Source of the DNA: Petrimonas mucosa
GTDB lineage: Bacteria; Bacteroidota; Bacteroidia; Bacteroidales; Dysgonomonadaceae
DNA length: 64,000 nucleotides
Direction: 5' to 3'
Assembly (NCBI RefSeq): GCF_900095795.1
Contig: NZ_LT608328.1
Location: 1,233,001-1,297,000, forward strand
Under the pieces are notes generated by a model. It ran no database searches. It was not told where the DNA came from and was given only the letters and a program-made list of their open reading frames with translations. Shown one piece after another: positions 53,069 through 63,930 of this stretch. The position numbers were made by a program, and so were the translations under genes. How positions within the stretch are numbered: position 1 is the first letter of the stretch; every line of letters begins with the position of its first letter.

Positions 53069-54400
53069 TCAACCCTTTCTTGCCCGGATGATTCCCATCA
53101 CCTTGCCTTTCCCCATGCGGATGTAGTCGAGCAGGGGGCGGTCGGAAGGACAGGTAAAGCTGCAGGAGCCGCATTCGATGCAATCGGTGATGCGCCCTTT
53201 TTCGGCCTTCTCCCATTCGCCAAATTCAGACAGGTTCATCAGGAGGGTGGGATTCAGCCCCATCGGGCATACCTGGATGCACTTGGTGCAGCGGATACAC
53301 TCTCTCATCCGTTTGCGTTTCGATTCCAACGTGGGTATGATCAGTATTCCGGAGGTTCCTTTTGTTACGGGGACTTCAACGCTCGCGATCGCTTTGCCCA
53401 TCATGGGGCCGCCACACACAATCTTCCCGGTAGTTTCGGGTAACCCTCCGGCAAATTGAATGAGGTCGCCTACCGAAATCCCGACCCGTGAAAGAATGTT
53501 GCACGGATTTTTGAGATCTTTTCCGGTAACGGTCACCACCCGCTCCACGAGCGGTTTGTTTTTCTGCACTGCTTCGTAGACGGCAAAGGCTGTCCCTACG
53601 TTCTGCACCACTGCTCCTACCGAGATGGGAAGGGCTCCGCTGGGAACCTGACGGCCAAGAATGGCATCGATAAGCTGCTTTTCGCCACCTTGAGGATATT
53701 GCACTTTGAGAGGCTGTACCGAAATTCCGGGATAGGATTTGACTGCCGCGGTGAAACGGGCGATCGCATCCTTCTTGTTGTTTTCAATACCGATGACCGC
53801 CTTCTCGACGTTGATCGCCTTCATCAGCAGGGTCGTGCCCACCAGAATCTCTTCGGTCTTCTCCAGCATCAACTGATGGTCGGATGTGAGATATGGTTCA
53901 CATTCAACACCATTGATGATGAGTACTTCAGCTTTTGTTCCGGGAGGCGGAAGCAGTTTTACATGAGTGGGAAATGTGGCACCTCCCATCCCTACTATGC
54001 CTGCTGCGGAGATCTTGTCGATGATCTCCTTGGAGGTGAGGGTGCAGCTCTTTACCACAGTCTCGGAACGATCGATCTTCTCCTCCCATTGATCGCCTTC
54101 AACCTGAATAAAGACCGCATCGCGTTTATAACCGCTGGTGTCGAGCGCCTTGTCGATTTTCAAAACCGTCCCAGAGACAGACGAGTGGATGTTGGCCGAA
54201 ACAAATCCTACCGTTTTACCGATAAGTGTTCCTACTTTCACCTTATCCCCCTTTTTTACTACGGGTTGGCATGGAGCACCAATGTGCTGTGTAAGTGGAA
54301 TAACGACTTGCGCGGGAAGGGCAATAGGCTCTATTGCTTTCCCGGCAGAGAGTTTGTTTTCTTTAGGGTGAATTCCCCCAATGCGAAATGTTTTTAACAT
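53069..54400 (-). CDS. rnfC: Rnf complex subunit C (NADH-binding)
   Basis: 443 residues. The N-terminal part is a soluble domain with GGIHPKENKLSAG; the FMN and NADH region carries GIVGMGGATFPTHVK and INGVECEPYLTSDHQLML near residues 130-180. Two [4Fe-4S] motifs are at the end, CIRCTKCIQVCPMG and CIECGSCSFTCPSDRP. The length is shorter than the E. coli homologue because the Ala/Lys-rich C-terminal extension is missing. It sits on the cytoplasmic face and reduces NAD. Confidence 0.96.
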   Translation of the reverse strand: MLKTFRIGGIHPKENKLSAGKAIEPIALPAQVVIPLTQHIGAPCQPVVKKGDKVKVGTLIGKTVGFVSANIHSSVSGTVLKIDKALDTSGYKRDAVFIQVEGDQWEEKIDRSETVVKSCTLTSKEIIDKISAAGIVGMGGATFPTHVKLLPPPGTKAEVLIINGVECEPYLTSDHQLMLEKTEEILVGTTLLMKAINVEKAVIGIENNKKDAIARFTAAVKSYPGISVQPLKVQYPQGGEKQLIDAILGRQVPSGALPISVGAVVQNVGTAFAVYEAVQKNKPLVERVVTVTGKDLKNPCNILSRVGISVGDLIQFAGGLPETTGKIVCGGPMMGKAIASVEVPVTKGTSGILIIPTLESKRKRMRECIRCTKCIQVCPMGLNPTLLMNLSEFGEWEKAEKGRITDCIECGSCSFTCPSDRPLLDYIRMGKGKVMGIIRARKG

Positions 54401-54455
54401 AGAACTCTTGTAATCTCTTTGAAGAGAATCTTTTATTGTGAGTTTTTTATCTGAA

Positions 54456-55322
54456 TTAAGCGTTTACCGTTGCCTCTTCCTTAATGGCCGGTGGAGTCTC
54501 TTTTTTCGGCGGGAAGTTGAGTTCCAGTATGGAGTTTGTAGGACATACGGGAACGCATTTGCGGCAGAGACGACATTTGTCGTCATTGATGTATGCCAGG
54601 TTATTTTCGATGGTAATGGCTTCGAACGGACAGGCCTGTTGGCATTTGCTGCAGCCTATACAGGCCACATTGCATGCCTTGCGTGCCACCGCTCCCTTAT
54701 CCCTGTTCACGCAGCTGACATAGATGCGGCGCGATTTGGGACCTTGCTTCCGCAATTCGATGATATCTTTGGGACAGGCTTTGACACATGCTCCGCAGGC
54801 GGTACATTTGTCCTCCACCACTTCGGGCAACCGGGTGAACGGATTGATATGGATGGCATCAAATGTGCATGACGTTTCACAATCGCCCAGTCCGAAACAT
54901 CCGAATGAGCAACCGGTTTCGCCCCCGTAGAGCGCTGCAGCTATGGTACAGTTTGAAACTCCGTCGTAGAGGTTTGTTCGCGGCCGTTCATCGCACGAAC
55001 CGCTGCATCTGACAACCGCTATCTTTTTTGCCGAGGTAGTTGCCGTTTTTCCCAATATGGAGGCGACCTTGTTCATGGTCTCCTGCCCTCCAACCGGACA
55101 GAAGAGATTGTCGAGGGTGTCGGCTTTGACGCACGCGTTGGCAAACGACGAACAGCCAGGGAAGCCACAACCTCCACAATTGGCTGCGGGAAGTGCCTCC
55201 TGAATCTCCTCGATCCGGGGATCCTCCTCCACATGAAATTTTCTTCCCACAATGTAGAGAATGGCGGCGCTACCGGCTCCTATTGCTCCTAATGTGGCTA
55301 CTGCAGAAAGTAATACACTCAT
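54456..55322 (-). CDS. rnfB: Rnf complex subunit B (ferredoxin-like)
   Basis: 288 residues. One transmembrane helix at about 5-25 is followed by a four-Cys cluster domain (NCGGCGFPGCSSFANACV) and then by several ferredoxin-type motifs: CTACGACVKACPKDI, CIGCSKCQQACPFEAI and CRLCRKCVPVCPTNSI, plus an additional Cys pattern CSFGCFGLGDCETSC. RnfB accepts electrons from reduced ferredoxin, whose local source would be KOR. The C-terminus is an Ala/Glu-rich tail. The gene follows rseC by 10 bases. Confidence 0.96.
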   Translation of the reverse strand: MSVLLSAVATLGAIGAGSAAILYIVGRKFHVEEDPRIEEIQEALPAANCGGCGFPGCSSFANACVKADTLDNLFCPVGGQETMNKVASILGKTATTSAKKIAVVRCSGSCDERPRTNLYDGVSNCTIAAALYGGETGCSFGCFGLGDCETSCTFDAIHINPFTRLPEVVEDKCTACGACVKACPKDIIELRKQGPKSRRIYVSCVNRDKGAVARKACNVACIGCSKCQQACPFEAITIENNLAYINDDKCRLCRKCVPVCPTNSILELNFPPKKETPPAIKEEATVNA

Positions 55323-55332
55323 ATTTCAATTA

Positions 55333-55743
55333 TCAATGGTTATTTTTGATCGTAAATTTAAATGAGCCTGCCATTTTATGGCGAAGAAAATAGAGTAACA
55401 GGTAATAAGGTGCCAGTGCAAGAACAGAGGCAACGGCCGCTTCCGTTTCACCCCATCTCCATGCGGAAGTGGCGACAATGATTGTCGATACAAGAATGAC
55501 GACGGGAACGACGAAAGCCCATAGGACAGCCCTGTAGCCCATCGACTCCTTGCACTCGAGGGTCACAAGGTCGTTCAGCTTGTAGTTGCCTTCGACATTG
55601 GTTACCTCGATTGTCTTCTCCTTGGAATCTGCAGCCATGCATGCCCCTTTGGCGTGACAACTGCTGCAAGCCGATTGCTGTAAAATCTTAACAGATATTT
55701 TTTTGTCCGATATGGCTGTTATGATTCCCTGGTGTTCAATCAT
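55333..55743 (-). CDS. rseC: SoxR-reducing system/RseC family protein
   Basis: 136 residues. A Cys-rich N-terminal segment (SACSSCHAKGACMAAD) is followed by two membrane helices at about 72-94 and 102-120. Members are linked to Rnf in many bacteria, where they are thought to help assemble or to reduce SoxR. No SoxR is seen here. As first gene of the rnf operon, it most likely helps the Rnf complex itself, perhaps in cluster insertion. Confidence 0.9.
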   Translation of the reverse strand: MIEHQGIITAISDKKISVKILQQSACSSCHAKGACMAADSKEKTIEVTNVEGNYKLNDLVTLECKESMGYRAVLWAFVVPVVILVSTIIVATSAWRWGETEAAVASVLALAPYYLLLYFLRHKMAGSFKFTIKNNH

Positions 55744-55963: not shown

Positions 55964-58123
55964 ATGAAGAGAATATTTCTTTTTTTCTGCCTTGCATGCG
56001 GTACATTGCTGCTTCAAGCCCAGCAATACACCCTGAAAGAGCTGGTCGAAGGCCGTTTTTCGGCGAAAGGTATCGGTCAGATGGAATCTTCTGCCGACGG
56101 GATGCACTATTACCAGACCGACCCTGAAAACCGGGCGGTAATAAAGTACTCCTATGCAACCGGTAAGGCGGTCGATACACTATTCAATACACGTCGTGCT
56201 AGGGAGTGTACTTTCGATACGTTTCAGGGATTTCTGGTCAGCCCGGACGAGAACCGGGTATTGGTCTACAGGGAGCGGGAACAGATCTACCGCCACTCAT
56301 TCAAGGCCACCTACTATTATCACGATGTCCGTCGCAACCTGGTACGTAAACTTACCCAGAATTCATCAAAACAGATGATTCCCACCTTCTCGCCCGATAG
56401 CAAGATGCTGGCCTACGTTGCCGACAACAACATCTGGCTTGCCAAATTCGATTTTGATACCGAGTCGCAAGTGACTAAGGATGGTGAGATCAATAAGATC
56501 ATTAATGGATCAACAGACTGGGTTTATGAAGAGGAGTTCGGCACAACCCGGCTGATGGAGTTTTCACCCGACAGCAAGTTGCTCGCTTTTGTCCGATCCG
56601 ACGAGTCACAGGTCAGGGAGTATCAGTTTCAGACATTTAACCGGGAACTCTATCCCGGCTTCTACAGCTACAAATATCCCAAAGCGGGCGAGAGAAACGC
56701 ATCGGTGGAGCTGCGTGTCTTTGATATCGATTCCCGGACCATACGCAAGATGGATCTTCCGCTCGAGAGTGACGGATATATTCCGAGGATAACCTTCACT
56801 GGAAACCCCGATGAACTGGTGGCCATGACCCTTAACCGGAACCAGAACCGGTTTGACATGTATTTTGTCAATCCCAGAAGCACGGTGGCAAAACTAGTTC
56901 TGAGAGAGGAGAGCAATTACTATATCGATGCAGACCTGCTCAACAGCATCCATTTCTTGTCGAACCGTTTCACTTACCTGTCGGAAAAGGAGGGTTACAG
57001 TCAGATCTATATCTACGGATTTACGGGGACGTTGCAAAAGAAACTGACCACCGGCCAGTACGACGTGACAACTCTCCTGGCTGTGGATGAGCAGACCCAA
57101 ACGCTCTTCTACGAGGCGGCAGATGAGAGCCCCCTGCGCAGGAATGTCTACAGGATAAATATCGACAAGGGTCAACCCCAAAAGTTGTCGGTCCGTCAGG
57201 GCTACAATCAGGCATCGTTCAGCAACCACGGGAAATTTTTTGTCAACCGTTTCTCCGATACCCGCACACCGCCACTCATTACGTTGCATGATGCCACCGG
57301 AAAAGAACTTCGGGTGCTTGAAGATAACGGACAACTGGCGGCACAGTTGGCGGCGGCGCAACTACCACAAAAGGAGTTTATCACGGTTCCGGCAGCTGAC
57401 GGTATCACGCAGCTGAATGGCTGGATCATCAAACCTGTCCGGTTTGATGCTTCAAGAAAATATCCGGTTGTGATGATACAATATAGCGGACCCAACTCTC
57501 AACAGGTGCTGGACCGGTTTGGAACGGACTGGTATTATGCCCTGGCAAACGAAGGCTTTGTGGTCGCGTCGGTCGACGGACGGGGTACCGGTGCACGGGG
57601 TGAGGCGTTCCGAAAGCAGACCTACATGAACCTCGGTGTGATGGAGTCGGACGATCAGGTGGCTGCAGGCCGTTATCTCGCATCGCTTCCCTATGTCGAT
57701 GGCAACCGTATCGGTATCTGGGGATGGAGTTACGGGGGCTATAACGTACTGATGAGCATGAGCAGGGGTAACGGATTTTTCAAGGCTGGAGTTGCCATTG
57801 CGCCCGTAACCGACTGGAAGTTTTATGATTCGGTCTATACCGAACGATTTATGCGGACGCCACAACAGAATGCCGCGGGATACGCTGATGGTTCGGCCAT
57901 CTCACTGGCTTCCAGGTTGGAGGGGCAACTGCTGCTGGTCCATGGTATGGCCGATGATAATGTTCACTTCCAGAACTCTGTTGAATATTCGCGGGCGCTG
58001 ATCGCTGCCGGAAAACATTTCGAGATGTTTTTCTTCCCCGACAAGAATCATTCAATCTATGGCGGAAATTCCCGTTTGTACCTTTATGAGAAGGTGATCG
58101 ATTTTTACAGGAAGAATCTCTAA
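55964..58123 (+). CDS. Dipeptidyl peptidase IV family serine peptidase (S9B)
   Basis: 719 residues. A signal peptide (MKRIFLFFCLACGTLLLQAQ) sends it to the periplasm. An eight-bladed propeller covers about 30-470; the DWVYEEEFG motif that holds the substrate amino end is at about 184-192. The hydrolase domain has the triad S589 in GWSYGGYN, D664 in HGMADDNVH and H696 in DKNHSIYG. The family releases X-Pro or X-Ala dipeptides from peptides. This suits a protein-fermenting, proline-using organism, in line with the pruA and proline dehydrogenase genes. Confidence 0.95.
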   Translation: MKRIFLFFCLACGTLLLQAQQYTLKELVEGRFSAKGIGQMESSADGMHYYQTDPENRAVIKYSYATGKAVDTLFNTRRARECTFDTFQGFLVSPDENRVLVYREREQIYRHSFKATYYYHDVRRNLVRKLTQNSSKQMIPTFSPDSKMLAYVADNNIWLAKFDFDTESQVTKDGEINKIINGSTDWVYEEEFGTTRLMEFSPDSKLLAFVRSDESQVREYQFQTFNRELYPGFYSYKYPKAGERNASVELRVFDIDSRTIRKMDLPLESDGYIPRITFTGNPDELVAMTLNRNQNRFDMYFVNPRSTVAKLVLREESNYYIDADLLNSIHFLSNRFTYLSEKEGYSQIYIYGFTGTLQKKLTTGQYDVTTLLAVDEQTQTLFYEAADESPLRRNVYRINIDKGQPQKLSVRQGYNQASFSNHGKFFVNRFSDTRTPPLITLHDATGKELRVLEDNGQLAAQLAAAQLPQKEFITVPAADGITQLNGWIIKPVRFDASRKYPVVMIQYSGPNSQQVLDRFGTDWYYALANEGFVVASVDGRGTGARGEAFRKQTYMNLGVMESDDQVAAGRYLASLPYVDGNRIGIWGWSYGGYNVLMSMSRGNGFFKAGVAIAPVTDWKFYDSVYTERFMRTPQQNAAGYADGSAISLASRLEGQLLLVHGMADDNVHFQNSVEYSRALIAAGKHFEMFFFPDKNHSIYGGNSRLYLYEKVIDFYRKNL

Positions 58124-58284: not shown

Positions 58285-59385
58285 ATGGGAGAAGGCAGTG
58301 TAATTATAAAACAACTGAGAAATCCGGCATACGGGCTTATACCGTTACTTGTTTTCTCTATCCTGAGCAAGTGGGTGGATACGGGAACGGCACTCTGTGT
58401 AGCGTTGGGTTTGGCATTGTTGGGTGTTTTTCTGGTAAGGAAACATAGCCGGATGTTGTATGACATATCCGCCATCACATTCTGCATCGCACTCATTATG
58501 CTCCTTTTTCAATATCCACTCGACGACTTTGGGAAATTTGTGATTGTCGAGGTGATTTTTGTCATGGCCCTGGTTGTCTCCAGGCTGCTCCGTACCCGGG
58601 TAATCACCATACTGGCTAGAAACCGGCAACCCAACGTCAGAAACTATCTGTCGGAATCGTTTCGTGTGGCATTCCAGATACAGTATGCCCTCTTTTTCCA
58701 TCTACTGCTGACACTGGTCTACTTTACACTATCCACTGTCCAGCCTCCAAAGATTGGAGAACGAGAGATCATACTGCTTGCGGAGGTTATCATCCTTGCA
58801 GTGATTGTGATGGAGGTGGTCCGCTTCCACTTTCTGGATAAGAAACTGAGGGCGGAGGAGTGGCTGCCCGTGGTGACAGAGTCGGGAGAGGTAACCGGCA
58901 AAGTGGCCAAGTCGGTGACAAGGGAGATGAAGAACAAGTTTATGCATCCGGTTGTGCGGATAGCGCTGATAAGTAACGGAAAGATCTATCTGAAAAAGCG
59001 GGATGCCTCAAGATTGCTCAATCCAGGTGCCCTCGATTACCCGTTCGAGAAATATATGCAGTATAATCACGATATCAACGAAGCCATCCTCAATATGGTC
59101 AAGAAAGAGATCGGGACCAAGGATATTCCGTTACGTTTTTTACTGAAGTACATTTTCGAAAACAAGAGTACCAAGCGGTTGATCTTCCTCTATGTCTCCA
59201 TTATCGATGATGAGGAGAAGTTCAACAGCCTGGAGTTGAAAGATGGCAAACTGTGGACAGAAAAGCAGATTGAGGAGAACCGCAATTCCAATATTTTTTC
59301 CGAATGCTTTGAACTGGAGTTTGAATACCTGAAAAATACCGTGTTGCTGAATTATAAGTTGAAAGCTACCGAAACACCCTGCTGA
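58285..59385 (+). CDS. Membrane protein with a degenerate Nudix-like C-terminal domain
   Basis: 366 residues from MGEGSVIIKQLRN, with a frame open 21 codons further upstream. About five to six membrane helices lie at 18-180. The C-terminal part, from about 192, matches the Nudix fold: EWLPVVTESGEVTGKVAKS, HPVVRIALISNGKIYLKKRD, then LLNPGALDYPF. The expected catalytic box (GxxxxxExxxxxxxREUxEExG) reads YNHDINEAILNMVKKEIGTKD, so the RE and most acidic residues are lost, and the GG before it is replaced by FEK. It is unlikely to hydrolyse nucleotides but may still bind one. Upstream and downstream genes give no strong clue. It could be a membrane-tethered sensor. Confidence 0.75.
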   Translation: MGEGSVIIKQLRNPAYGLIPLLVFSILSKWVDTGTALCVALGLALLGVFLVRKHSRMLYDISAITFCIALIMLLFQYPLDDFGKFVIVEVIFVMALVVSRLLRTRVITILARNRQPNVRNYLSESFRVAFQIQYALFFHLLLTLVYFTLSTVQPPKIGEREIILLAEVIILAVIVMEVVRFHFLDKKLRAEEWLPVVTESGEVTGKVAKSVTREMKNKFMHPVVRIALISNGKIYLKKRDASRLLNPGALDYPFEKYMQYNHDINEAILNMVKKEIGTKDIPLRFLLKYIFENKSTKRLIFLYVSIIDDEEKFNSLELKDGKLWTEKQIEENRNSNIFSECFELEFEYLKNTVLLNYKLKATETPC

Positions 59386-59490: not shown

Positions 59491-62400
59491 ATGAAAATAG
59501 CAAAGAAAATTGTCCGGATTTTTGCCATTGTTGTCGTTTGTGTAATAGGATTAAATATTATACTTTTCCTGACATTCAGTTTTCAGCCCGTTCAGAAGTT
59601 TGCTGCTGACTTTGCCATCGGAAAGCTTGAACCGAAGCTGAAGACCGAAATGGCTGTGGAGAGGATCCGGATCAAGCTCTTCAACCGGGTAGAGATCGGG
59701 GGGCTTTATGTTGAAGATCAGAGGCGTGATACCCTCTTTTTTGCCGAAACCTTGTCGGCACGACTCAACATCTGGAATCTGCTGAACAATCACCTCTCCA
59801 TCGAGTCGGTCCGCCTGGAAAACTTTACGGCGAAGGTATACCGGCTGACACCTGCCGATCCCTTTAATTTCCAATTTATTGTCGACGCTTTTGCACCTGC
59901 CGACACTGTCAGGAAGGAGCCAAAGGAAGATCCGATGAAAATTTCCATAAACGACATCAGGCTTTCCGATGGAACACTTCGTTACGACATCGTGTCACAG
60001 CCGGATACCCCCGGTAAGTTTAATGCCGCTCACTTTTCCGTAAGGCAATTCAATCTCGTTGCCGATATCTCATCGCTCGATATCAAACATCTTATCGCGG
60101 ATATAAGCAAGTTGAGTTTCGATGAGGAGCTTACAGGATTGAGGGTGCACGACCTGCAGGCGATGGTGCGTTCGGACGGCTCAAGGCTTTGGAGTAACCG
60201 GGTACTCCTTTCGCTGAACAATTCCGGCCTGGAGGTAAGTGATGCCGCCTACGACCTGGAAAGTAAAGCATTCAACCTGACCGTAAAGAGTGATCAGATC
60301 GATCCGAAGGATGCTGCCATCTTCTACGACAAGTTGACCCATCTCGATAAACCGATTCTTTTCAATGCCGATTTGGCCGGGAAGCTTCCTCAAGCCGAAA
60401 TACGGAACCTGACATTCAGGTATGGAAGCAAGACAACCATTACTGTAAATGGCGAGATCGCAGATTATGCAAAATTCGGGGATACGGCCATCAGTGTGGA
60501 GATTCCCAATCTCAGGATGAGCGTGGAGGATCTGGAGGATTTTATCCGTATCGGTGCGCCCCGGTTTGAGTCGGTCCCGCAACTGGCAGCTTTGGAAGAT
60601 ATCGGGTTGACATTGAAAGCAAAAGGTACTCTTGCCGGTTTCAGCGTGACGACCCGCATAAACACATCTCCCGGAACCCTTCTGTTTGATGGAAGGGGAC
60701 GGGCCGACGGCAGATTTGAAAATATCTCGGTAGACGGTCGTTTGAGGAGCGATAATCTCCGGATAGGCAAGGTAATCGGTGAGCAGGTTGGCGTGGATGA
60801 TCTCTCCCTCAATACAGTTGCCAACGTGAAGATCCGGAAGAAGGAGCGTCCCGTGGTGGCGATCGACGGCAATATCGGATCGGTCTCCTACAAGGGGTAT
60901 CCCTACAGGGATATTGCGGTGAATGGCACCTACAATGGAAATGAAAACAGTGTTGCCGGCAGGGTCTTGATGGATACTGAAGAGAACCGGTTCGACCTGC
61001 AGGCCGATATCGGTTTTGGAGATCGGATGAAGTTTGATGTGAATGGGATCATCGACAAACTTTTTCTTGGCTCCCTTATTACGGTCGAATCGTGGGAAAA
61101 TCCCTACCTGACAGCAAGAATCAATGGAAGCCTTTCAGGCAAGAACCTCGATGATCTTGTAGGAAACGTAGTGATCGACAGTACATCACTCTACGATGCC
61201 AATTTTATCTATAATCCCGGTCCGGTCTATCTTCAGGCTCTTTCGGATGAAATTAGCGGCGAGAAGAAGATTGAGCTACTCTCGTCGATTGTAGAGGGGA
61301 AACTGTCTGGAAATTATAGTTTTGTCTCTATCGGATCGGAGCTGATGAATGCTTTGCATCCGCACCTGCCTACATTGATTAAGGAGCCAGCAAAAAAGGT
61401 GGCGGCGACGGGAATGAATCACTTCAACTTTAATTTTCTGCTGAAGAACACTGAGGATATCTCCTATGCCTTGTCGCTTCCGTTTATCAATGTCGAGCCT
61501 GCAACCCTTTCGGGTACGGTGGATATGGTGAATGGAAAATCGGTAAGGGTAGAGTGTCATGTTCCGCGACTGATGTTTGGGCAGAACGATCTCCGCGAGA
61601 GCCGGGTCGAACTGAATCTGGATACAGTGTCGGGAGCCCGCGTAAGTGCCGGCAGCTACCTGGTTCAGGAGAACGGTCATATCAATGCCCGGCTGGATAC
61701 TCGTGCAATCAGTGATTCGATCACCCACCTGTTGTCGGTTCATGTCGATAACAATGTCGCCCATGCAGACGGGAACCTGAATGTATCGATGGGGTTCCGT
61801 AATGATCTGGAGGGGAATCCGGTGTCGGATATCTCCATCCACCCTGCAGAGATCCTCTTCAACGGAAAAACCATCCATGTAGCGCCGTCAACCGTCGTTT
61901 ATGAAAAGGAGAGGATCACCGTAAACGATTTCGAGATACGTGAAGAGGAGATGCTGTTGCTGGGTATTGACGGGGTTGCTTCAAAAAGGCAGGAGGACGC
62001 GATCAGGGCGTTTTTCAACAATACCGAGATGGAAACCATCCTGGCGGCATTTAATATATCAACATTCAAGGGGGCGATCAACGGTGGTGTTACTGTCAAC
62101 CAGGCGTTGGCAGATCCGCTTATCCGGACCGAAAATTTCCGGATCGAGAATATCCGGACGCAGACCGATACCCTCGGTACCCTTTTTATCGAAGGCAACT
62201 GGGACCTGCTCAAAAGGGGCCTTTCGCTGGATGCCAGCATAAAGAACAACAAAAGCAACTATCTCGTAGTGGATGGATTCATTCCGATCGGTAGCGATCA
62301 TCCCATGGATATCGATATCCGGATCAACAATCTGCCGTTGGCCTGGGTACAACCTTTTGCCGTATCCACCTTCAGCCAACTCTCCGGCACGGTCAACTCC

Positions 62401-63930
62401 GCCATCAACCTCTCCGGCAAGACATCTGCTCCGGTAACCGAGGGATGGCTGGGGATCAACAAGGGGATAATGACGGTGGCATTTACCAACGTGACCTACA
62501 GCATTTCGGATACCATCACCATTACCCCGGGGAATATCGGGCTCAACAATCTGATTATAAAGGATAACAACAATCATGAGGCGCGATTGAACCTCTCATT
62601 GAGCCACAATAACTTCGACGGGATGAGCTACAACGTCGGCATCATCATGTCCGATTTCCTCCTGTTGAACAATGCACAGCGAACCGACGAGATAGCATAC
62701 GGGACACTGAAATTGAGTGGAAATATCAATATTAACGGCTCTTCATCCGGAATTTACGGTAATGCAAACCTGAGGAGCGAGAGCCGGTCGAGCATCAGGA
62801 TTGAACTGCCCCAAACCGCCCAGGCAGAGGAGTATAGCGGCATCATTTTCATCAATACTCCGCAGGTGGCGGATTCGCTCTCCTTCCTGAAAAAAAGGGA
62901 GAATAGCGACAGGCAGATCAATACCCGCCTGAGTGCCGGAATTCCCATAAACATTCAGGCAATCCTGAACCTGACCCCGATGCTGGAGGCCGGTGTGGTG
63001 ATCAATCCTACTACGGGCGATGCTCTGGAGATCAACGGATCTGGCCAGATTCGTGCCAATTTCGATTCGAGGGCTGTTCCCCCTGTCCGTCTCTATGGCG
63101 ATTATGTGGCTGAAGAGGGAAAATTCCGGTACAATTTCCAAAATCTCAAGACCATAGACTTCAATATCCGTGAAGGGAGTACCGTTACACTTGTGGGTGA
63201 TCCGCTGAGTACGCAGTTCAATATCGCCGCATTTAACCAGGTAAATGCAGATATTGCCACACTTAGTGAAACTTTCACGACACAACTCTCCAATACCCGG
63301 ACAACTGTCAACGCGCTGCTTGAGATACAGGGCAATCTGGAGCAGATGAACCTGAAGTACGGGATTGAACTCCCGGATGTCTCCAATGATATCAGACAAC
63401 GGTTAAACAGTCTGATCAGCACGGATGAGCAGAAGAACCGTCAGTTTGCCAGTCTTATCCTGACCGGCGGCTTCTTTCCGGCTGAAGGTTCGTTGGGCGT
63501 GGCGTTTGGCAACAACATGGCCGCCACCTTTGCGGCAGGCCAGCTGGCCAAGGGGCTGGATGCCCTCCTGGCAGGAGCCTTGAACGACAACTGGACTGTA
63601 AGCACCAATCTTCAGAGTCTCGATGGAACCTTCGAGAATGTAAGGATGGGGGTAGATCTCTCCACCCGGCTGTTTGACGACCGGTTGCGTGTCTCCACCA
63701 ACCTCAGCTACGGCGACAACTCAACCCTGGCAACCCAACAGGCATTTATGGGGGAATTTGAGCTGGAGTATGATATCAACAACTGGCTGATGATCCGCGC
63801 CTACAACCGGGCGAACCAGCGTTTTTCGAAACGGGCGCCCACCACACAGGGGGCAGGGATTGTAGTTACACGTAATGCCCGGACATTAAAGGAGCTGTTC
63901 CGGTTTAGTTTCAGGAAGAAAGAGGATTAA
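59491..63930 (+). CDS. tamB: TamB-like translocation and assembly protein
   Basis: 1479 residues. An N-terminal transmembrane helix (about 8-31) is followed by a very long beta-rich periplasmic body with repeated short strands, an AsmA-like lead-in (SLSARLNIWNLLNNHLSIESVRLEN cited in part) and the C-terminal TamB domain (from about 1150, with INLSGK, NINGSSSGIYGNANL, GEFELEYDINNWLMIRAYN and a terminal RFSFRKKED). TamB proteins bridge the two membranes and help lipid or outer-membrane protein traffic. The next gene begins 4 bases later and encodes a lipoprotein, which fits a TamA/TamL partner. Confidence 0.93.
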   Translation: MKIAKKIVRIFAIVVVCVIGLNIILFLTFSFQPVQKFAADFAIGKLEPKLKTEMAVERIRIKLFNRVEIGGLYVEDQRRDTLFFAETLSARLNIWNLLNNHLSIESVRLENFTAKVYRLTPADPFNFQFIVDAFAPADTVRKEPKEDPMKISINDIRLSDGTLRYDIVSQPDTPGKFNAAHFSVRQFNLVADISSLDIKHLIADISKLSFDEELTGLRVHDLQAMVRSDGSRLWSNRVLLSLNNSGLEVSDAAYDLESKAFNLTVKSDQIDPKDAAIFYDKLTHLDKPILFNADLAGKLPQAEIRNLTFRYGSKTTITVNGEIADYAKFGDTAISVEIPNLRMSVEDLEDFIRIGAPRFESVPQLAALEDIGLTLKAKGTLAGFSVTTRINTSPGTLLFDGRGRADGRFENISVDGRLRSDNLRIGKVIGEQVGVDDLSLNTVANVKIRKKERPVVAIDGNIGSVSYKGYPYRDIAVNGTYNGNENSVAGRVLMDTEENRFDLQADIGFGDRMKFDVNGIIDKLFLGSLITVESWENPYLTARINGSLSGKNLDDLVGNVVIDSTSLYDANFIYNPGPVYLQALSDEISGEKKIELLSSIVEGKLSGNYSFVSIGSELMNALHPHLPTLIKEPAKKVAATGMNHFNFNFLLKNTEDISYALSLPFINVEPATLSGTVDMVNGKSVRVECHVPRLMFGQNDLRESRVELNLDTVSGARVSAGSYLVQENGHINARLDTRAISDSITHLLSVHVDNNVAHADGNLNVSMGFRNDLEGNPVSDISIHPAEILFNGKTIHVAPSTVVYEKERITVNDFEIREEEMLLLGIDGVASKRQEDAIRAFFNNTEMETILAAFNISTFKGAINGGVTVNQALADPLIRTENFRIENIRTQTDTLGTLFIEGNWDLLKRGLSLDASIKNNKSNYLVVDGFIPIGSDHPMDIDIRINNLPLAWVQPFAVSTFSQLSGTVNSAINLSGKTSAPVTEGWLGINKGIMTVAFTNVTYSISDTITITPGNIGLNNLIIKDNNNHEARLNLSLSHNNFDGMSYNVGIIMSDFLLLNNAQRTDEIAYGTLKLSGNININGSSSGIYGNANLRSESRSSIRIELPQTAQAEEYSGIIFINTPQVADSLSFLKKRENSDRQINTRLSAGIPINIQAILNLTPMLEAGVVINPTTGDALEINGSGQIRANFDSRAVPPVRLYGDYVAEEGKFRYNFQNLKTIDFNIREGSTVTLVGDPLSTQFNIAAFNQVNADIATLSETFTTQLSNTRTTVNALLEIQGNLEQMNLKYGIELPDVSNDIRQRLNSLISTDEQKNRQFASLILTGGFFPAEGSLGVAFGNNMAATFAAGQLAKGLDALLAGALNDNWTVSTNLQSLDGTFENVRMGVDLSTRLFDDRLRVSTNLSYGDNSTLATQQAFMGEFELEYDINNWLMIRAYNRANQRFSKRAPTTQGAGIVVTRNARTLKELFRFSFRKKED

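Follow-up and report, generated by a model that had tools for sequence, protein, structure and literature searches.

The window, a 64,000-nucleotide stretch of the Petrimonas mucosa genome (NZ_LT608328.1), encodes a membrane protein whose C-terminal half is a Nudix fold with a destroyed catalytic box and whose N-terminal half, compared through intact-box intermediates, appears to be a diverged YciB-type domain. We tentatively favour, with slightly less than even confidence, the reading that this protein is a Nudix pseudoenzyme mounted on a diverged YciB-type six-helix membrane domain and acting as a ligand-binding regulator. Feature positions are collected in Table 1; the membrane spans were read from the AlphaFold2 model and the sequence together.

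Table 1. Position of the fusion gene, its domains and its neighbours in the window
Feature	Position	Strand	Basis or remark
Gene, 366-aa membrane protein with degenerate Nudix domain	58285..59385	+	ATG 58285, stop 59383-59385; ORF coordinates agree with the initial annotation
Membrane domain, residues ~8-188, six helices read as membrane spans	58306..58848	+	AlphaFold2, profile comparison
Nudix-fold domain, residues 190-353	58852..59343	+	VIA against 2fkb (YfcD)
Residues 256-278, where the Nudix box used to be; catalytic residues substituted	59050..59118	+	Alignment to intact-box relatives
Motif ILNMVKKEIG	59086-59115	+	Motif agrees with the initial annotation
Upstream neighbour, dipeptidyl peptidase IV (S9 family)	55964..58123	+	Pfam DPPIV_N and Peptidase_S9
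Downstream neighbour, TamB	59491..63930	+	Pfam TamB

The C-terminal half is a Nudix fold

The start codon is common to close orthologues of the genus in the alignment; at the locus, a promoter scan stayed at chance level and no terminator was found. A Pfam scan of the full protein returned no match, and no NCBIfam model exceeded its cut-off (YfcD model: E 2.3e-6, 27 bits, cut-off 152); the family came to light only via its intact-box relatives. A sequence search of the PDB matched E. coli YfcD (2fkb) at E 4.2e-4. The AlphaFold2 model, built from a 27-row alignment (pLDDT 84.3, pTM 0.63), consists of helices up to residue 190 followed by an alpha/beta domain. Foldseek matched this model to 2fkb at E 1.1e-8, and VIA superposed the C-terminal half on the same structure with Z 18.2 over 155 of 161 residues (rmsd 2.1), an alpha/beta/alpha Nudix arrangement; both IPP isomerase and DR0079 scored Z ~16, and NrtR and AraR were also among the fold matches. 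These results confirm a real Nudix fold, beyond chance, of the YfcD/DR0079/IPP-isomerase type. The initial annotation, made from the letters alone, had already read a membrane protein ending in a Nudix fold and had proposed structure prediction and comparison as the check that could overturn it; the model places helices before the Nudix domain, and the C-terminal part does model as Nudix. From the charge pattern, judged by eye, this domain is thought to lie on the cytosolic side.

The same annotation had suggested a nucleotide or ADP-ribose ligand, a suggestion that is not supported, as no result points to ADP-ribose: the best sequence and fold matches of the Nudix half lie instead in the branch of YfcD, DR0079 and IPP isomerase. 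An intact-box relative with the same architecture, L038, scores 63 bits against the IPP isomerase profile and 51 against YfcD; ADP-ribose diphosphatase is absent among the families listed for intact fusions, and its profile gives 16 bits on the soluble sister described below. Within this branch, DR0079 prefers cytosine di- and triphosphates (Buchko 2008, as cited in PMC5389931). YfcD carries a box in the alignment from the PDB sequence search, and the DR0079 box is described as having one variation (PMC5389931), whereas the window protein has no box left and an added membrane domain.

The catalytic box was probably lost once

Alignment to intact-box relatives places the residues of the signature GX5EX7REUXEEXGU at G256, E262, R270, E271, E274 and E275, where the window protein has K, H, N, M, K and E. 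E275 is thus the sole survivor of the six, and the protein lacks the intact box that marks an active Nudix hydrolase. The box is absent in all 30 rows of the first alignment, which excludes both a sequencing error and a private mutation. By sequence, the destruction of the box is confirmed, in agreement with the initial annotation, which had seen the RE and the key Glu replaced.

Intact boxes do occur in homologues. Using a pattern that tolerates A at the first Gly, N at the first Glu and K at the Arg, we found one in 58 of 163 non-identical full-length fusion proteins; of the homologues gathered within the window's own family or genus, none has it. The first such relatives, L037 and L038, match PF00293 (NUDIX) and PF04279 (IspA/YciB) above gathering scores. 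A tree computed without the box columns from 98 rows (58 degenerate and 40 intact, each box state thinned separately at 66% identity) contains a single change of box state (SH-aLRT 98). A tree of the membrane half, in which rows cannot be grouped by the box itself, also has one change, with SH-aLRT 93, or 95 without four long rows. For the tree without these four rows, the program warns that L196, a long row of the intact set, joins the degenerate side. All of these are quick trees with many open forks and four to twelve long rows. Among the tree and locus rows, no family code contains both box states.

A tree was built of 97 Nudix domains (six distant Nudix genes as outgroup, 30 degenerate fusions hand-picked from the 58, 40 intact fusions and 21 soluble copies); on few columns and with modest support, degenerate fusions (85) and soluble intact-box copies (96) form separate groups, both nested within the intact fusions. 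An intact-box fusion is therefore most likely the ancestral state. Read from these trees, the active site was lost long ago, in one branch of Bacteroidales. The initial annotation had held that homologues with an intact box would speak against it; such homologues exist, but only in a separate branch, and so they indicate when the loss took place and do not overturn it.

We sampled 80 fusion-holding genomes, from which 11 intact-box genomes were left out. Of the 33 with a degenerate fusion, 22 also hold a closely related free-standing Nudix protein with an intact box (E below 1e-60); of the 47 with an intact fusion, none does. In intact-fusion genomes, the best match after the fusion itself reached E 4e-16. 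The association has a Fisher p of 7e-12 in a statistic that ignores kinship; with one loss on the trees, it amounts to little independent evidence. Catalysis seems, from these sequence counts, to have moved onto the soluble copy, although the sister is missing in 11 of the 33 degenerate-fusion genomes, that of the window included. In the window genome, four genes exceed the Pfam cut-off for NUDIX, and the fusion gene is not one of them. A second Nudix gene also lies in the window itself (L287, 40286-40624, minus strand, 209-aa open frame); its REUXEEXGU part is intact (RELMEETGY) and the first Glu of its box seems to be Q.

Distribution of the degenerate fusion

Matches to the degenerate fusion were found in 43 of 61 near genomes. 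In the window's own family, Dysgonomonadaceae, 35 of 37 genomes match (all except G005 and G029), and the full-length matches there are free of stops; outside it, the fusion matches in 8 of 24 near genomes, most of these 8 via the C-terminal half only. Among the best 80 of 86 relatives, the named ones are mostly Dysgonomonadaceae, the nearest being Petrimonas sp. IBARAKI at 81%. Wider surveys, all of whose counts include matches to the Nudix half alone, gave 13 of 296 genomes for the class (narrow profile), 165 of 393 for the order (wider profile) and 18 of 296 for the phylum.

One record each of Bacteroides finegoldii and Parabacteroides distasonis also holds the degenerate fusion, as inspection of the box showed; RefSeq calls it 'hypothetical protein'. 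Other records of these two species carry the annotation 'NUDIX domain-containing protein'. A record titled Ruminococcaceae UBA1438 (L057) holds a typical Dysgonomonadaceae stretch and is probably a mislabelled or mixed assembly. No relative of L038 was found on viral contigs.

The membrane half connects to YciB through intact fusions

Modelled alone from 59 rows, the membrane half of the window protein reached a pLDDT of 94.1. It has no Pfam match, neither to PF04279 (IspA/YciB, "septation protein A") nor to any other family, and among degenerate membrane halves 1 of 58 matches, at E 0.031, which is within noise given that an unrelated family reaches 0.0028. The intact fusions behave differently: PF04279 matches 38 of their 40 thinned membrane halves at E up to 0.01, and a profile of these 38 aligns to E. 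coli YciB (b1254) over 137 columns (hhalign, 97.5%, E 7e-12). In turn, all 58 thinned degenerate membrane halves align to all 40 intact ones over 189 columns (99.0%, E 3e-18). These hhalign E-values refer to single pairs, not to a database, and the EEWLP linker common to both sets raises the degenerate-intact score; an earlier comparison on a selection of 36 of the 58 degenerate and 38 of the 40 intact rows gave a very similar result. Aligned to E. coli YciB without intermediates, the degenerate profile scores poorly (13.8% with all 58 rows, 3.1% in another run). Homology to YciB/IspA is thus reached via intermediates, and because the intact-box proteins connect both sides, the window protein is, on this profile evidence, a diverged YciB-Nudix fusion; YciB itself is 179 aa long and has no Nudix domain. 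The divergence extends to single positions, since residues 62, 70, 84 and 85, which are D, G, K and P at 0.86-1.00 in the intact clade, are altered in the window protein. Among the 61 near genomes, PF04279 occurs in one, namely in an intact fusion.

Foldseek gave no match for the membrane model at E up to 0.001, and searching PDB sequences with the profile of the intact membrane halves yielded 0 matches. The best VIA match, the 5-HT3A receptor (Z 9.0, 126 aligned, rmsd 4.8), falls in the usual helical-bundle range. Neither a TRP nor a YciB structure was among the 50 matches listed, and no match of any kind was confident, so signalling through the membrane half is unsupported from this side.

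To our knowledge, the role of YciB is unsettled. It is described as a receptor exploited by CDI toxins (PMC11630599), and together with DcrB it is said to act in membrane fluidity (PMC9487459). By analogy with these few accounts of E. coli YciB, the membrane domain might serve membrane fluidity or the upkeep of the envelope.

The Nudix half is constrained and altered

We compared seven sequences of the genus (21 pairs) by NG86. Where dS was finite, dN/dS was 0.008-0.044 in the Nudix half (6 of 21 pairs) and 0.066-0.128 in the membrane half (13 of 21), the remaining pairs being saturated; as all Nudix pairs of the window protein itself are saturated in dS, the low ratio rests on the other members of the genus. 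The proportion pN is lower in the Nudix than in the membrane half in all 21 pairs, and 42 columns are invariant in 27 sequences. The dead Nudix half is under tighter constraint than the membrane half. A decaying gene without function would account for the lost catalytic residues and for a membrane half that diverges faster than the rest, but it is scarcely credible when 35 of 37 family genomes keep the gene with stop-free full-length matches, invariant columns persist and dN/dS lies far under 1; a pseudogene was rejected on the selection data.

Conservation was then compared between the degenerate clade (73 rows at 75% identity) and the intact one (50 rows). Within the Nudix domain of the degenerate clade, conservation is lowest in the box helix (1.85 bits vs 2.39-2.70 in the other blocks), whereas beyond the box it slightly exceeds that of the intact proteins (2.39 vs 2.20 bits); the membrane half drops from 2.10 bits in the intact to 1.36 in the degenerate set. 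Many positions have changed residue and become fixed, for example: 225 is R (0.99) rather than H (0.94 in the intact set), 253 is P (0.97) rather than A (0.78), 298 is R (0.88) rather than E (0.92), and the TPN of intact proteins at 339-341 has mostly become SEC. Our reading of these alignments is that function changed rather than was lost. With the active site gone and selection nevertheless strong, the domain is probably a binding or signalling part and not an enzyme.

An enzyme of other chemistry, in which acids outside the box (such as E255, E292 and E345) would bind a metal or serve another reaction, is quite improbable. Such conserved acids do exist, and IPP isomerase, one of the closest folds, uses the Nudix scaffold for isomerisation. 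The catalytic residues of IPP isomerase are a Cys and a Glu. Against an enzyme stand the low conservation of the box helix and the state of the box itself, of which only E275 is left in the window protein, a residue present at a frequency of 0.32 in the degenerate set.

Scaffold or ligand-binding regulator

The same conservation could equally stem from a protein-protein surface, with the dead Nudix domain serving as a scaffold that tethers another protein of the cytosol to the membrane, be it the soluble Nudix sister or an enzyme of the envelope, without binding a small ligand. We regard this as rather unlikely. In its favour, non-enzymatic members of the Nudix clan are described in PMC5389931, and the C-terminal helix carries E347 (0.85), K350 (0.82) and L354 (0.82) where the commonest intact residue reaches 0.18, 0.24 and 0.30. 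However, E345 is conserved in both clades (1.00 degenerate, 0.96 intact), so this helix is not new as a whole, and the changed residues R225 and P253 would lie, as placed from the model strands, on or next to the pocket strands of Nudix folds. The sister, moreover, is missing from 11 of the 33 genomes with a degenerate fusion, including the window's, and a role as its partner therefore cannot be general.

In the ligand-binding regulator that we prefer, the cytosolic Nudix domain would no longer cleave its substrate; it may instead bind a small diphosphate-type molecule, or a molecule that the soluble sister makes or uses, and binding would alter the state of the membrane domain, as with the Nudix-derived effector modules of NrtR/AraR and TRPM2. 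The Nudix sensor proposed in the initial annotation remains plausible in this form, its membrane protein, Nudix fold and dead box being supported and its ADP-ribose or nucleotide ligand unsupported.

Precedents differ in what the broken domain is attached to. In the Bacteroides regulator AraR, a Nudix domain with a broken box is described as an arabinose receptor whose movement reaches the next domain (PMC4666351). NrtR and AraR thus resemble the window protein in having a Nudix fold with a broken box, which in them is the effector-binding domain, but there it is joined to a DNA-binding domain and not to a membrane part, whereas the window protein ends with its Nudix domain. A winged-helix DNA-binding domain is absent, as the Nudix alignment stops at residue 353 of the 366 and no further domain appears in the model. 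TRPM2 combines six membrane helices with a cytosolic domain at its C-terminus. Its NUDT9-H domain is reported to be canonical in one branch, the invertebrates, and vestigial in another (PMC6461439), which by analogy would be a similar course of events in a membrane protein. TRPM2 is, however, an animal cation channel with a Nudix domain of another subfamily, and no confident structure match marks the membrane half of the window protein as a channel or a relative of TRP. That the window protein is a bacterial counterpart of TRPM2, a YciB-type module set by a small diphosphate on a dead Nudix domain, with an ancestral membrane-bound Nudix enzyme giving rise to a soluble enzyme on one side and a sensor in the membrane on the other, is an unlikely conjecture; if true, it would give a first handle on the function of YciB-type proteins.

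Broken Nudix domains acting as receptors are already known. By title and abstract opening, the matches listed from the open-licence literature include no description of one joined to a YciB-type membrane domain or septation protein. That YciB occurs naturally fused to a Nudix enzyme suggests that one process involves both the membrane part and a diphosphate substrate. Set side by side, the dead fusion, its intact counterpart and the soluble sister allow a ready comparison of the passage from enzyme to regulator.

Gene neighbourhood

Flanks were compared at 154 loci (54 intact, 99 degenerate and one unclassified; L121 and L239 are the same contig). A DPP4 cluster lies within a few kb of 65 of the 99 degenerate loci and 2 of the 54 intact ones, and where an upstream neighbour is present, it is co-directional at 91 of 98 degenerate loci, compared with 35 of 54 intact ones. 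Other companions of degenerate loci are a lipA-like gene (21 loci; Pfam Radical_SAM, lipA by likeness and RefSeq), GtrA (22 loci, in Dysgonomonas and in records titled Prevotella or uncertain, with a PMT_2 gene in 16 of the 22), a miaA-like gene (10 loci; Pfam IPPT) and a TamB cluster (7 of 99). No constant or stable operon partner was found across the 154 loci; as these neighbours vary from locus to locus, no function was derived from an operon. The initial description of the gene as unlinked holds in part: the DPP4 cluster is frequently nearby, but no neighbour has a clear functional link.

The GtrA/DPMS-type membrane gene precedes the dead fusion at its 22 loci in Dysgonomonas and related records (L103 and L117 among them), and with the PMT_2 glycosyltransferase it suggests polyprenyl-phosphate sugars; polyprenyl chemistry, hinted at by GtrA and miaA, was judged too weak a lead. 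In both the B. finegoldii and P. distasonis records (L292, 27614-36150 of NZ_OY725925.1, and L293), the order is DPP4 (S9 peptidase), lipA, dead fusion; miaA precedes DPP4 in B. finegoldii, and the records are labelled plasmids and look chromosomal. Five intact fusions (L188, L191, L192, L205 and L249) follow short coiled-coil, ZapA-like and RNase Y-like genes, as judged by eye. Upstream in the window itself, RnfC-, RnfB- and RseC-like genes, likewise assigned by eye, occupy 53069-55743 on the minus strand.
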